NCBI GenBank assembly: GCA_024635605.1 | Contig: JAGXIR010000185.1 | Location: forward strand, 1 to 33,417 | Direction of reading: 5' to 3' | Origin: Sunxiuqinia sp. | GTDB taxonomy: Bacteria; Bacteroidota; Bacteroidia; Bacteroidales; Prolixibacteraceae | DNA: 33,417 nt | In this document: piece by piece, positions 6,131 to 10,024 of the stretch | Position numbering within the stretch: the first letter of the stretch is position 1 | How the letters are laid out: every line of letters begins with the position of its first letter | The notes under the pieces: model-generated | Database searches by the model: none | Told to the model about the DNA's origin: nothing | What the model saw: the letters and a program-made list of their open reading frames with translations, nothing else | Made by a program: the position numbers and the translations under genes

Positions 6131-6237
6131 TTTGATGGTTTGCAAAAACATCGGCACCTAATGGCGTGTTTGTACTGACAAGACGGTTAAACGCTCCGCA
6201 GTGAATAACTAGTTCCTCAGGACTTCCGGGAGCTTTA

Positions 6238-6317
6238 ATACCTATCAAATTATTTTTTGATACCTGTCAAATTTTATTTTAATACCTATTAAAAATATTT
6301 TTAACAGGTATTAAAAA
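6238..6317. repeat. 22-bp tandem iteron-like repeats with an inverted last copy
   Basis: Three head-to-tail copies begin exactly 22 bp apart at 6238, 6260 and 6282, each opening with ATACCTATC, ATACCTGTC or ATACCTATT and continuing in A/T. A fourth partial copy, AACAGGTATTAAAAA at 6303-6317, is in the opposite orientation. The 22-bp period is about two helical turns, which would put each ATACCT on the same face of DNA, as in cooperative operators or iterons. No function is known to me. The block sits between the permease terminator and the palindrome array upstream of the GIY-YIG gene. Between 6318 and 6476 I see nothing further. Confidence 0.75.
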
Positions 6318-6476
6318 TCCATCGCCTCCTGTCCCGTTTTCCATCAACACCTTAGGCAAGTGCCATCGAATGCTGGAGTTTTATCCCTGATTCCGGTAGC
6401 AAAAAGCGAAAAGATGCTATGTTTTTTATTGAGGGCTTCACTTGGAGTGAAACCATCAATAATGCATGCTTGTCGA

Positions 6477-6618
6477 GTCATCCCGAATTTATTTCGGGAT
6501 CTCCGTTGAACAAGGAAAGGTTGTTTAGAACCAACAGATCCTGAAACAAGTTCAGGATGACGCTTCTCGCCCAGGACAGTTGGTTTAGGCGAGTCATGCC
6601 GAACTTGTTTCGGCATCC
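6477..6618. repeat. Palindromic repeat array I (three units)
   Basis: Three 21-bp palindromes (8-bp arms, 5-base loop) lie at 6480-6500 (arm ATCCCGAA), 6538-6558 (arm ATCCTGAA) and 6596-6616 (arm ATGCCGAA). All stems are perfect although the arm sequences differ. Each has polarity: GTC before and CT or CC after in one orientation, AG before and GAC after in the other. Orientations alternate (forward, reverse, forward) and both gaps are exactly 37 bp. The first gap, between the CT/AG ends, contains CAAGGAAAGG. This is a REP/BIME-like arrangement; short ORFs crossing it give peptides such as HPELVSGS and are not genes. Confidence 0.9.
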
Positions 6619-6681
6619 GTCTGCTAAAAAGCTGTAACTTTTCTGCCGAAATTGATACCTTTAGGCAAGAAACCACCACAC

Positions 6682-7074
6682 ATGCATAAAGGCTTCGTTT
6701 ACATACTGTCCAACAAGAACCGAACAACCTTCTATATTGGTGTGACTTCCGACATTAAACGACGGGTACTCGAACACAAAACTGGCAAAGGATCGGCTTT
6801 TACAAACAAATATAACCTGACTGATTTGATGTATTTCGAGAAAATCGAAGGCATGGATGAATGCATTAACAGGGAAAAGCAACTTAAAAATTGGCATCAC
6901 GATTGGAAAATCAACCTAATCCGGGACAGCAATCCTGAAATGAGAGATTTATCCGGCGATTGGTTTATGCAGCAAAATGGGGAGCTGGTTATTGCTGACC
7001 GGGCGAGGGCGAAAGCGTATTTTGAAAAGCTTAATAGAAATTCGCAGACAGATCCTGAAACAAGTTCAGGATGA
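6682..7074 (+). CDS. Small GIY-YIG nuclease (YhbQ/COG2827-like)
   Basis: A 130-residue single-domain protein of the GIY-YIG endonuclease fold. Visible motifs are VYIL (6-9, standing for GIY), FYIG (17-20, YIG), the following arginines in SDIKRRVLEHK (23-33), and the C-terminal-half acidic motif INREKQLKNW with the candidate metal-binding E65. These match small stand-alone GIY-YIG proteins often labelled UPF0213 or excinuclease-like; their biological role is largely unknown. ATG 6682 is chosen because MHKGFVYIL starts directly before the fold; an earlier in-frame start adds unconserved residues. The gene lies between palindrome arrays I and II. Its final residues (TDPETSSG) and TGA stop are encoded by the first palindrome of array II, so the 3' end has become fused to the repeat. 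All catalytic motifs look intact. Confidence 0.88.
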   Translation: MHKGFVYILSNKNRTTFYIGVTSDIKRRVLEHKTGKGSAFTNKYNLTDLMYFEKIEGMDECINREKQLKNWHHDWKINLIRDSNPEMRDLSGDWFMQQNGELVIADRARAKAYFEKLNRNSQTDPETSSG

Positions 7075-7195
7075 CTGTATCTTCTGGAGTTGGAGTGGAG
7101 GAAAGCGTCATGCCGAACTGGTTTCGGCATCTGTATCAAACAAGGAAAGGTTGGCAAGTACTGGCAAACAGATCCCGAAATAAATTCGGGATGAC
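7049..7195. repeat. Palindromic repeat array II (three units)
   Basis: Palindromes at 7052-7072 (arm ATCCTGAA), 7110-7130 (arm ATGCCGAA) and 7172-7192 (arm ATCCCGAA), orientations reverse, forward, reverse. Gaps are 37 and 41 bp. The 41-bp gap joins CT/AG ends and contains CAAGGAAAGGTTGG, nearly identical to the corresponding linker in array I. The first palindrome overlaps the 3' end of the GIY-YIG gene, whose stop codon is at 7072-7074. Confidence 0.9.
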
Positions 7196-7260
7196 TCGAA
7201 GATTTTTCAGTTTACTTTACTCTTAGGGTTATCGTAATGTTTTGTAGTTTTAAAGGAAAA

Positions 7261-8283
7261 ATGGCTGACAAATACGACTATCTCACAAAAACTAAAAAAG
7301 AAGAAAGAAATCATATCATTAAAATAGGAGATAAGAACATTCGAAGCTCGATTGAATATAATCCGCGACCCAATTCTCCGAAAAATCTTTTTAAATATCA
7401 TGCGTGCAACGAACACAGCTTAAGCGCCTTAAAAGAAAATGAAATATGGGCAAGCAATCCATCATCCTTCAACGATCCTTTTGATTGTTCTCCTCAGTTA
7501 TGGGAAGGTCGTTTATTTCCATTCGGTGAAATCAAAGAAATTCTAAAGCTAGTATTACTCTCTGAGCAAGTTGATTCTTGTAAAAACAATAATCAATTAA
7601 GGGAACTTTTCTTTAATACCATTAAGGATTTCATTGGGATATATTGTCTCAACGAAGGTAGAAATGAAGAATTATTTTGGGCATATTATGGCGATGACCA
7701 TAAAGGAATCAAGATAAAGTATAAGCAAAAAATTCTATCGAGGTTTTGGGAAACAGCCCCCTTAAAACTAGAATACCTTGAACTAGATGAGTTAATAAAT
7801 CAACGCATGAAGGTTAATCGTAATTTGTCAAGAAATTTTCACAAAATATTCCCCCAACTCATCAGGTGGGTTACGGTGAAAAAGAAAACCTGGGTGCATG
7901 AAAGTGAATGGAGATATATTTTTTGGGTTAGTCCGTCTGATCAAGAATCTAGAAAACAACGATACCCCAGAAATGCAATAAAGTCAATTACTCTGGGCTA
8001 TAAGTTCTTTGAAAGTAGCAATGTACAGTATATACATTCAGGTGTGTTTAAACATGTTTTTGAGATCAAAGAAGGATGTGGCAATAATCAGATTAATTAC
8101 CACCTTGAAATACTAAATTTTTTGAAAGATCATTCGGATTATCCTTTATATCAAATTGCTTTAGATGAAAATATGAAACTCTATCCTCAACAAATTTATA
8201 TCAACGAGATAAACGATAGCGTCGTAACTATTTTTAGAGAATTTCCACCTGAGCAGCTAAAGGTCATGGATGCGAAGGTATGA
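7261..8283 (+). CDS. DUF2971 domain protein of unknown function
   Basis: A 340-residue soluble protein matching the DUF2971 pattern. Recognisable blocks, numbered from ATG 7261: LFKYHACNEHSLSAL (43-57), EIWASNPSSFNDPFDC (61-76, the family hallmark), LFWAYYGDDHKGIKIKY (138-154), WVHESEWRYI (211-220) and AIKSITLGYKF (239-249). No membrane segment or signal peptide. Function of the family is not established; members occur in accessory regions. The gene is plainly more AT-rich than recJ, parE or the porin gene, suggesting acquisition. It lies between arrays II and III, and its stop is only 11 bp before the first palindrome of array III. An in-frame ATG at 7237 is an alternative start; 7261 is preferred because AAAGGA precedes it closely and residues before it look unlike coding sequence. 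No clear promoter is seen. Confidence 0.8.
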   Translation: MADKYDYLTKTKKEERNHIIKIGDKNIRSSIEYNPRPNSPKNLFKYHACNEHSLSALKENEIWASNPSSFNDPFDCSPQLWEGRLFPFGEIKEILKLVLLSEQVDSCKNNNQLRELFFNTIKDFIGIYCLNEGRNEELFWAYYGDDHKGIKIKYKQKILSRFWETAPLKLEYLELDELINQRMKVNRNLSRNFHKIFPQLIRWVTVKKKTWVHESEWRYIFWVSPSDQESRKQRYPRNAIKSITLGYKFFESSNVQYIHSGVFKHVFEIKEGCGNNQINYHLEILNFLKDHSDYPLYQIALDENMKLYPQQIYINEINDSVVTIFREFPPEQLKVMDAKV

Positions 8284-8292
8284 TCCTGATAC

Positions 8293-8559
8293 AGATTCCT
8301 TCGCTGCACTCGGAATGACGACGCAAGCAACGTTCACCCCTTATTGTCAAGTCATCCCGAATTTATTTCGGGATCTGTCTGCAAGTACCTGCCAACCTTT
8401 CCTTGTTCGATGCAGATGCCGAAACAAGTTCGGCATGACGCTTAATTTTATGGTTGTTGCCCTAATTGAAGAGCGTCACCCTGAACTTGTTTCAGGGTCT
8501 GTTGGTAAATAACTGCCTTTCCTTGTTTTGTGGAGATCCCGAAATAAATTCGGGATGAC
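8293..8559. repeat. Palindromic repeat array III (five units)
   Basis: Units at 8295-8316 (a divergent type, arms ATTCC/GGAAT), 8354-8374 (ATCCCGAA), 8416-8436 (ATGCCGAA), 8478-8498 (ACCCTGAA) and 8536-8556 (ATCCCGAA). Orientations alternate strictly: reverse, forward, reverse, forward, reverse. Gaps are 37, 41, 41 and 37 bp. Both gaps between CT/AG ends contain CCTTTCCTTG, the reverse complement of CAAGGAAAGG. The gaps between GAC and GTC ends begin or end in GACGC/GCGTC in several cases. The divergent first unit keeps the same AG...GAC flanks and the same 37-bp phase. Confidence 0.88.
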
Positions 8560-8629
8560 TTGAGCATTATAAGATCGGATCCCTGCTTGTACACACCCAC
8601 CAGGCAATGAGGCAAGCCACCACCACATC

Positions 8630-8721: not shown

Positions 8722-8747
8722 GTCCCACTGAACAGGTTTCAGGGTCT
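8722..8747. repeat. Degenerate solitary copy of the palindromic repeat
   Basis: GTC, then a 21-bp segment 8725-8745 resembling the ACCCTGAA-arm palindrome with mismatches in the left arm (CCACTGAA versus TTCAGGGT), then CT. The flanks and length are those of a forward unit, but it is out of phase with array III and its stem is broken, so it looks like a decayed copy. Confidence 0.6.
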
Positions 8748-8890: not shown

Positions 8891-10024
8891 TCATGAGGAT
8901 AAGTTGGCTTGCGATTCTGAAACGTTAAAAACAGACTCTTTTTTAATCACCCCATCTTCGATATTAATTGCCTTTCGAATTGTCGTGTTTTTCATCCAAC
9001 TCATACGACCCTCTAAAATTGTTGGTAAATACACAATTAGTGCTGCAGAAATTGATCGTGAAGCACTTTCCCACAGATAACTTGGTGTATGATCAACTGC
9101 GTAATAATCGATCTTACCAATATTCAGAATTGGGTTTTCAAAAGTTGTTGGTTTAGCAAAATAGAACCCCATCCCTTCATCGCAACTCACATCAATAATT
9201 AGACTTCCTGGTTTTAAGGTATCCTTTTCTTCTTCTGTTACAAAATCAATCGGAAAGTCTGTATCCTGGTAGGTGCCATTAATAATGATTTCAGATTCAC
9301 CAATTAAATCGGATAACGGTCGAACGGTGCCATCATGTTCAACAGTAACCATTCGGGCCTCCCCTTCTTTACCGTCACGAATTCGAACATAGTGCACGTC
9401 CAAAACTTCTTCACGAACTTCATGATCGGGCCGTTGAATACAAATTGTAATATCTCTGAAACCGTGATATTTTAATGCATAAATAGCGCCACGGCTAACC
9501 GCGCCAAATCCAAAAATAATGACCTTGCGTTGGTTCCCATAATGACCATCGATACCCCTTAGTTGCAAGGCATGGATAACGGCACAATAGCCCGCCATTT
9601 CATTGTTCTTATAAAACGTATGTCTGCCTACTTGCCCACTAGGAGACCAAACAAACATATCTTCAAATGCAATGACTGTTAATTTTCGATCGATGGCTGT
9701 TTGTGTAATGTCGCCTTGCTGTACGCAATGCGGATACCCCCAAATGAGCCCTCCTTCACGCATTTCTTGCAAGTCTTCTAATACAGGTTTCGCAATAATA
9801 ACCGACCCCATTTCAGCCAATACCTCATGGCGAGAAGCAACTCCTCCTGCTTGAGAAACAAAAAAATCATCATCCAACCCAAAAGGCTTACCATATCCCT
9901 TCTCAAAAATTAATTGTTTTCTGATATCCTTAGGTAAACGCGATAGATCTTCAGGATGAATTGGCACACGTTTTTCGTCTTTTTTTCTTGAAGTTCCAAT
10001 AACTCCTAAGCTTAATTTCTTCAT
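8891..10024 (-). CDS. Alanine dehydrogenase/PNT-family oxidoreductase
   Basis: A 377-residue NAD(P)-dependent enzyme of the alanine dehydrogenase/pyridine nucleotide transhydrogenase superfamily, cytoplasmic. The N-terminal domain shows DEKRVPIHPED (16-26, substrate-binding R and H region) and IIAKP (76-80, with the family lysine). The Rossmann domain has VIIFGFGAVSRGAIYAL (168-184). The C-terminal part contains YAVDHTPSYLWESAS, resembling the saccharopine dehydrogenase and N5-(carboxyethyl)ornithine synthase branch more than true alanine dehydrogenase. Reaction is therefore not fixed: an opine- or ornithine-type imine reductase is a fair guess. It stands alone, facing array III; a decayed PLP decarboxylase lies divergently upstream, hinting at a lost amino-acid pathway (inference). 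The perfect palindrome at 10043-10058 just upstream could be its operator. Confidence 0.75.
   Translation of the reverse strand: MKKLSLGVIGTSRKKDEKRVPIHPEDLSRLPKDIRKQLIFEKGYGKPFGLDDDFFVSQAGGVASRHEVLAEMGSVIIAKPVLEDLQEMREGGLIWGYPHCVQQGDITQTAIDRKLTVIAFEDMFVWSPSGQVGRHTFYKNNEMAGYCAVIHALQLRGIDGHYGNQRKVIIFGFGAVSRGAIYALKYHGFRDITICIQRPDHEVREEVLDVHYVRIRDGKEGEARMVTVEHDGTVRPLSDLIGESEIIINGTYQDTDFPIDFVTEEEKDTLKPGSLIIDVSCDEGMGFYFAKPTTFENPILNIGKIDYYAVDHTPSYLWESASRSISAALIVYLPTILEGRMSWMKNTTIRKAINIEDGVIKKESVFNVSESQANLSS

Follow-up and report, generated by a model that had tools for sequence, protein, structure and literature searches.

A GIY-YIG nuclease gene within a block of alternating palindromes

The window is a 33,417-bp stretch of Sunxiuqinia sp. 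DNA (contig JAGXIR010000185.1, G000:C19 in our set) from an assembly, G000, of 3.08 Mb that is 71% complete and divided into 240 contigs. Between positions 6477 and 8559 it encodes a small GIY-YIG nuclease and a DUF2971 protein, the two genes being bracketed by three clusters of short palindromes (Table 1). Ten of the palindromes, identified by script and in the sequence, belong to one class, here class A. Each has a 21-bp core with 8/8 arm bases paired and a loop of 5 nucleotides (nt), following the formula GTC + ATSCYGAA-loop-TTCRGSAT + C; nine of the ten start with AT and one with AC. The eleventh, p7, is weaker, with 5/8 outer bases paired, and was placed in another class (C), whose pattern has one match in the assembly at 3 mismatches, p7 alone. 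Orientation alternates within the clusters (+-+, -+- and -+-+-) and the gaps between cores are 37 and 37 bp, 37 and 41 bp, and 37, 41, 41 and 37 bp, that is 37 bp five times and 41 bp three times. The initial annotation had described eleven palindromes of alternating orientation with these gaps, and it was borne out, with ten of them class A and one a degenerate class C element. With up to 3 mismatches allowed, the class A pattern matches the assembly 39 times and its reversed control 0 times; 10 of the 39 are inside the 2.1-kb block. The other class A copies read in this genome are mostly intergenic, and a degenerate palindrome match lies at 8722-8747, outside the block.

The block also contains two sets of inverted repeats. 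Its outer 92-bp arms are complementary at 79/92 positions, forming terminal inverted repeats as in a classical DNA transposon, and its inner 97-bp arms at 90/97. Inverted duplication of dimers best explains the phasing in the window, the spacing being regular because dimers were duplicated as inverted copies in the 97-bp and 92-bp arms. Gaps of 37 and 41 bp were found again in the array of the congener G126. Across 80 other loci, the named loci described below, the gaps are variable. The spacing is therefore no general feature, and we rejected it as a functional code. Alternation is general, as 141 of 164 neighbour pairs less than 120 bp apart alternate in the 80 loci. The heptamer TGCTTGT occurs by eye at 6467-6473 and 8584-8590 and is too short to judge as a target site duplication. 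No DDE, serine or tyrosine transposase was detected inside the block with Pfam, which matched the GIY-YIG and DUF2971 proteins only; frames 8270-8509 (+) and 6897-7154 (-) had no Pfam match. Rfam gave 0 matches at gathering scores, the window has 0 predicted tRNAs, and phage records gave no match at 1e-10.

The nuclease matches Pfam PF01541 at 1.1e-15 (longer frame 6652-7071). R28 and E65, taken as the catalytic residues of the GIY-YIG family, are invariant in a 12-sequence alignment. The predicted structure is of the GIY-YIG type, with a mean predicted local distance difference test score of 81. The model is nearest to UPF0213 (1zg2, 1ywl), Slx1 and the N-terminal domain of UvrC, proteins of the same GIY-YIG fold that gave the best but weak profile and fold matches, consistent with one another (best E 1.5e-3). 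These are repair or uncharacterised proteins that are not known to have cognate repeats. The DUF2971 protein matches Pfam PF11185 at 3.7e-5 (longer frame) and the PADLOC candidate anti-phage family PDC-S31 at 9e-32.

Table 1. Coordinates of the palindromes, repeats and genes of the block
Feature	Position	Strand	Basis and remarks
Block present in window, replaced by 11 bp in congener G126	6467..8608		2142 bp
Left terminal inverted repeat (p1 + p2)	6473..6564	+	79/92 vs 8472-8563
Class A palindrome p1 (GTC + 8-5-8 + C)	6477..6501	+	Pattern; cluster 1, core 6480-6500
Class A palindrome p2	6537..6561	-	Pattern; cluster 1, core 6538-6558
Class A palindrome p3	6593..6617	+	Pattern; cluster 1, core 6596-6616
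GIY-YIG nuclease gene, 130 aa	6682..7074	+	Pfam PF01541; stop codon 7072-7074 inside p4
Class A palindrome p4, overlapping 3' end of nuclease gene	7051..7075	-	Pattern; cluster 2, core 7052-7072
Inner inverted repeat arm	7103..7199	+	Partner 8347-8443, 90/97
Class A palindrome p5	7107..7131	+	Pattern; cluster 2, core 7110-7130
Class A palindrome p6	7171..7195	-	Pattern; cluster 2, core 7172-7192
Leader, likely promoter and ribosome site	7229..7268	+	Common to mutB-site cargo genes of congeners
DUF2971 gene, 340 aa from ATG 7261	7261..8283	+	Pfam PF11185, PADLOC PDC-S31
Degenerate palindrome p7, class C	8295..8319	-	Core 8295-8316; core gap 37 to p8
Inner inverted repeat arm	8347..8443	-	Partner 7103-7199
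Class A palindrome p8	8351..8375	+	Pattern; cluster 3, core 8354-8374
Class A palindrome p9	8415..8439	-	Pattern; cluster 3, core 8416-8436
Right terminal inverted repeat (p10 + p11)	8472..8563	-	Partner 6473-6564
Class A palindrome p10	8475..8499	+	Pattern; cluster 3, core 8478-8498
Class A palindrome p11	8535..8559	-	Pattern; cluster 3, core 8536-8556

Gene clade and palindrome class are paired

To compare relatives we used the 80 named loci, drawn from genome_contigs as the best 80 of 510 and hence the closest rather than a random sample, and a family survey of 140 genomes with 27 GIY-YIG loci in the clade of the window's gene (clade A) and 55 outside. Class A palindromes lie within 250 bp of the gene in 77 of the 80 named loci, compared with 41 of 576 other open reading frames (ORFs) of the same contigs and 7 of 133 in a small-ORF control. 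Fisher's p is about 1e-65 for 77/80 against 41/576 but the rows are not independent, and because they share ancestry we use such p-values as a guide only. The initial annotation had proposed checking whether genes of this subfamily sit beside arrays more often than other genes do, and on these counts they strongly do. Among 411 class A pattern matches in the 80 loci, which include about 35 elements matched on both strands, 281 fall within 250 bp of the gene; the reversed pattern gave 0. The density is 7.1 per kb within 250 bp and 0.00-0.32 per kb beyond 500 bp. A pattern-free test agrees: perfect 8-bp arms occur on both sides within about 160 bp in 50 of the 80 GIY-YIG loci and 4 of 550 ORFs.

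All 27 clade A loci of the family survey have class A nearby. On a tree of 156 GIY-YIG proteins and 99 columns (6 of 162 loci were left out as too short), class A marks one clade, in 101 of 104 rows, and 12 class B rows stand elsewhere in two groups. The palindrome label changes 9 times on the tree, compared with 49.3 in shuffles. We drew 75 of the 145 inner branches open and used the deep split alone because the columns are few. Rows were labelled none when they fitted none of three palindrome patterns; one locus so labelled, G034:C44, has other GTC-tagged palindromes on both sides. Four rows fitted a fourth, loosely defined kind (D). Class A is also nearby in two loci outside the clade, G055:C29 and G064:C101. 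The pairing of gene clade and palindrome class is well supported.

The window's genome encodes a second GIY-YIG protein (contig C79, 95 amino acids) whose gene has a class B palindrome, ATTCCYGC-GAAA-GCRGGAAT, on either side. One starts 31 bp before the gene, the other 7 bp after it, and the assembly has no further class B match (up to 3 mismatches). Two unlike gene-palindrome pairs, class A and class B, in one genome provide a natural specificity control.

In its simplest form the unit is about 0.35 kb. Its first hairpin starts some 28 bp ahead of a gene for 95 amino acids, and the second, inverted hairpin starts 7-9 bp beyond that gene. This form is present in five family loci at one common site, and similar units are found in the named loci L171, L189 and L193. 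We counted 54 gene contexts of the unit among 100 loci, a number that carries no control for general gene-order loss. In L171, L207 and L216, palindrome-bearing GIY-YIG units adjoin genes that look by eye like trp, his and bio genes, and the Azospirillum unit sits between genes annotated as sufB and sufC.

The hairpins resemble CGTC-tagged repeats

Arm positions 2, 3 and 5 vary among 344 elements yet remain paired in 336, 331 and 339, where 202, 150 and 236 would be expected if the arms were independent. This covariation points to the hairpin itself as what is conserved. The base before GTC is C in 268, T in 85, A in 43 and G in 15 of the 411 pattern matches, some of them two-strand; in the window it is C in 4 of the 10 class A elements and A in 6.

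A superfamily of repetitive extragenic palindromes (REPs) with a CGTC tag is described by Di Nocera et al. 2013 (PMC3733652). Its members, known in 2013 from five phyla and found in Bacteroidetes, mostly have a CGTC or TGTC tag, an 8-bp stem, a 4-5-nt loop and a short tail, and occur as paired elements (PMC3733652). Class A shares most of these features. The tag is at one end. Beside a superfamily stem of 8-9 bp with A-T first and a loop of 4-5 nt, 10/10 window elements have 8-bp arms and a 5-nt loop, and 9/10 begin AT. The two bases after the element are CT in 227, CC in 62 and CA in 26 of 344, beside a superfamily tail near CCA. There are two differences. Grouped elements are called rare and the repeats seem to be without a dedicated transposase (PMC3733652), whereas here a GIY-YIG gene is flanked. 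In 77 of the 80 loci the gene flanked by class A is this nuclease, other transposase genes not having been sought. The 2013 study looked for transposases (PMC3733652); with a nuclease gene as the flanked gene, its statement still agrees with these loci as worded. We found no report linking GIY-YIG proteins to CGTC REPs in the literature open to search, outside of which most subscription journals and preprints lie.

Most of the homologs read in other phyla have similar flanks. From 30 matching plasmid-collection records we picked 12 by eye for different genera, reading tags by eye and with no control set. Nine of the 12 genes are flanked on both sides by palindromes, which differ by group and are nearly all tagged CGTC or GTC. 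The palindromes are one-sided in Photobacterium and in Sinorhizobium K101, the latter with a degenerate tag, and the Planktothrix homolog has none. Azospirillum lipoferum, Sinorhizobium meliloti and Novosphingobium aromaticivorans are among the species named for CGTC repeats by Di Nocera et al. 2013 (PMC3733652). An N. gonorrhoeae record encodes a homolog (43% identity) whose flanks carry dRS3-kind CGTC repeats. On the Planktothrix plasmid (L264), the palindrome-free GIY-YIG gene lies between genes for an MmeI-type restriction enzyme and DISARM drmA.

A filled and an empty site

The left flank of the block matches G126 up to 6466 (85% over 136 bp) and the right flank resumes at 8609 (79.5% over 83 bp). 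The permease of G126 is 96% identical to that of the window and is followed by the same flank. Where the window has the 2142-bp block, G126 reads AAGTGCATGCC (11 bp), which two further bases extend to CATGCCGA, resembling half a palindrome. Such 8-base matches number 4 per 12 kb there, both strands counted, and this one could be a target or a scar or have arisen by chance. Five other congeners have no class A in the stretches around the permease, though their downstream flanks look different. We also sought a second filled and empty pair at the G002 site, whose flank matched only short pieces in other genomes.

The GIY-YIG gene of G126 adjoins mutB (name by eye). The same arrangement is seen in G127 and G129 and in five genomes from a different genus, whereas the window's genome has one lone palindrome at its mutB site. 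The gene-bearing arrays of the window and G126 are 81% identical over 711 bp. The leader before the DUF2971 gene is identical to that of G126 at 40/40 bp while the DUF2971 proteins are only 36% identical. Its core pattern is exact in G126 and G127 and, among the fetched loci, is found within 4 mismatches at mutB in G128, G130 and G131 as well. The simplest reading is that block and leader would have come from a mutB-type site, either of the same genome or of a different one. G126 may also have lost an older second copy.

Proposed explanation

We think it probable that the palindromes are a CGTC-type REP family and that the GIY-YIG gene encodes an enzyme acting on them. The comparisons demonstrate the pairing of clade and class, hairpin covariation, conserved catalytic residues and one filled and one empty site. 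Copy number also follows the gene over the 140 genomes (class A, up to 2 mismatches), some of those scored as gene-free being incomplete assemblies. The median is 31.5 copies in 26 genomes with the gene, one of which (G003) has a truncated gene, compared with 0 in the 114 others, and 24 of the 26 have at least 10 copies.

The gene and its flanking hairpins would be the parent unit, on which the remaining genomic copies depend in the way that REPs depend on the genes of REP-associated tyrosine transposases (RAYTs). The protein most likely recognises the hairpin in single-stranded DNA, such as the lagging strand or repair or uptake intermediates, and may nick it near the tag. The resulting ends would be joined or recombined by host enzymes, since GIY-YIG nucleases are not known to rejoin DNA themselves. 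We infer the nicking, the action on single strands and the movement of the block by the enzyme rather than by host recombination. If the enzyme does move DNA, this would be movement without a transposase.

It is possible, and we suggest it tentatively, that the unit is a new transposon-like element. The gene and two hairpins (about 0.35 kb) would form its basic version, a hydrolytic GIY-YIG nuclease would release or copy hairpin-bounded single-stranded DNA, and larger forms would carry defence genes; such an element would be the missing dedicated enzyme system of CGTC REPs across several phyla. We know of no description of a transposon-like element of this kind.

Two known systems are similar. 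The closest is Ssn of Neisseria with its NTS (dRS3) repeats, reported in Nature Communications in 2025; Ssn is a small GIY-YIG nuclease with cognate palindromic repeats around its gene that reportedly cuts only single-stranded DNA, and does so sequence-specifically. Like Ssn, the window's protein is small and of the GIY-YIG family (PF01541, 1.1e-15) with conserved R28 and E65, and it has many cognate palindromic repeats, 39 in the genome with 10 around the gene. Unlike in the Ssn pair, the repeats here are of another class with a CTTGT-type loop, the host is one of the Bacteroidota, arrays reach five elements, a candidate defence gene is carried as cargo and the block has changed site; cutting of single-stranded DNA is here inferred. 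Two things are new: a block that carries cargo and lies at a different site than in a congener, and the control offered by two pairs in one genome. In the second system, the REPtrons of REPs and RAYTs, an enzyme gene is likewise flanked by its own inverted hairpins and accompanied by dispersed dependants. REPtrons have a GTAG tag and an HUH tyrosine transposase, whereas the tag here is GTC and the enzyme a nuclease. The genes flanked in the window encode the GIY-YIG and DUF2971 proteins and no HUH tyrosine transposase, RAYTs not having been searched for genome-wide. With genes and repeats paired by clade and class, in distant phyla, and a filled and an empty site, the spread of the repeats becomes directly testable.

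Several observations weigh against an enzyme acting on its own repeats. The situation that the initial annotation had named as telling against a partnership, many arrays in genomes with no gene of the subfamily, does occur: of the 114 genomes that lack a clade A match, 17 carry 10 copies or more. Copy-rich examples are G073 with 62, G067 with 56, G128 with 44 and G001, a single-contig genome, with 49. The repeats therefore outlive the gene or do not strictly need it, and of the REP-like family with a GIY-YIG partner that had been proposed, the pairing stands (77/80 against 41/576 ORFs, with class following clade) and strict dependence does not. Within the window's genus there is no difference, with 14, 19, 28 and 33 copies in genomes with the gene and 21, 29 and 44 in those without (p=0.4). 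Three of the 80 close relatives, all within the clade, have no class A nearby (L173, L184, L226), and 36 of the 55 family GIY-YIG loci outside the clade match none of the three palindrome patterns. Three further GIY-YIG pieces of the window's genome (contigs C48, C39 and C30) are without class A in the stretches read. The gene has been fixed in place long-term in several lineages, with 13 loci at one site and 8 at the mutB site. The change of site of the block could itself be recombination or transfer.

Alternative explanations

It is quite possible that the pairing is real and that the nuclease instead controls DNA uptake and recombination. It would then cut incoming or exposed single strands at the repeats, as is reported for Neisseria Ssn, the repeats would spread by recombination only, and the block would have moved by ordinary recombination or lateral transfer. 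The N. gonorrhoeae homolog (43% identity) between dRS3-kind CGTC repeats fits such a role, as do genes fixed at one site in many species and palindrome copies that exist without the gene. However, the empty site of G126 offers no full palindrome for homologous recombination, and the unit is found in 54 contexts among 100 loci, a count uncontrolled for general gene-order loss.

That nuclease-bearing arrays are a platform capturing defence genes is rather unlikely. In its favour, one leader precedes different cargo, and cargo at mutB varies, with DUF2971 in G126 and G128, a KAP NTPase in G127 and G130 and nothing large in G129. The window's DUF2971 protein matches PDC-S31, and in G002 a type IIG restriction enzyme gene is bracketed by class A pairs and adjoins the GIY-YIG gene. 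The same kinds of gene occur without the palindromes, though. We recovered mutB in 19 of 24 surveyed genomes, five of which (G072, G014, G021, G006, G007) had less than 1.3 kb after it. Class A was seen at mutB in two of the 19 (G073, G001). In six (G004, G010, G011, G008, G067, G020) mutB is followed by DUF2971, KAP, methylase or PIN genes with no class A in the stretch read. Because these six hold the same gene kinds without palindromes, the mutB site is in its own right a hotspot for defence genes. Genes bracketed by the palindromes in other families look by eye mostly metabolic, with trp, his and bio genes among them. Cargo is only weakly linked to the GIY-YIG unit, and we rejected defence cargo as a general property as too strong.

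The difference between filled and empty site could be an artefact of fragmented assembly, which we consider quite improbable. The window's assembly is 71% complete in 240 contigs, repeats can mis-join, and the right-flank match in G126 spans just 83 bp near a contig end. Against this, both flanks of the block are colinear with G126, and the mutB site of the window's genome is on one contig with one palindrome.

It is very improbable that the palindromes serve as terminators or have gathered as debris in permissive gaps beside a bystander nuclease. Accumulation in a permissive gap, with the nuclease a bystander, was the plain alternative of the initial annotation. The copies read elsewhere in the genome are mostly intergenic and many GIY-YIG genes outside the clade lack palindromes of this kind, but the adjacency (77/80 against 41/576), the clade-specific classes and the restriction of class B in this genome to its own gene contradict it.

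Neighbouring and related features

In the relatives L125, L231, L234, L242, L243, L245 and L237 the region after mutB is a defence-gene hotspot of DUF2971, KAP NTPase, methylase and PIN genes, with or without palindromes. Residues 604-657 of the type IIG restriction ORF of G002 (L044:5196-9134, 1312 amino acids) match Pfam Y1_Tnp, an IS200-like transposase, as though the enzyme enclosed a transposase domain. The approximately 125-bp repeat at L044:11080-11205 has many matches, clustered in G001 (C1:5457786-5483740) and G015 (C25:128696-138395), and could be integron-like.

Two GIY-YIG pieces of the window's genome, G000:C48:9955-10044 and G000:C39:4-132, are at contig ends and look like halves of one gene split by assembly. 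By eye, a tRNA-like sequence directly precedes the C48 piece. In the window an alanine-dehydrogenase-like gene (8894-10024), below the NCBIfam cut-off, adjoins the block; none of the genus's six other genomes contains a match to it at E<=1e-30. On the other side, three repeat copies 22 bp apart, of the TTTAATACCTATTAAA type, are followed by an inverted copy (6234-6316); the same repeats occur in G126 downstream of the permease.

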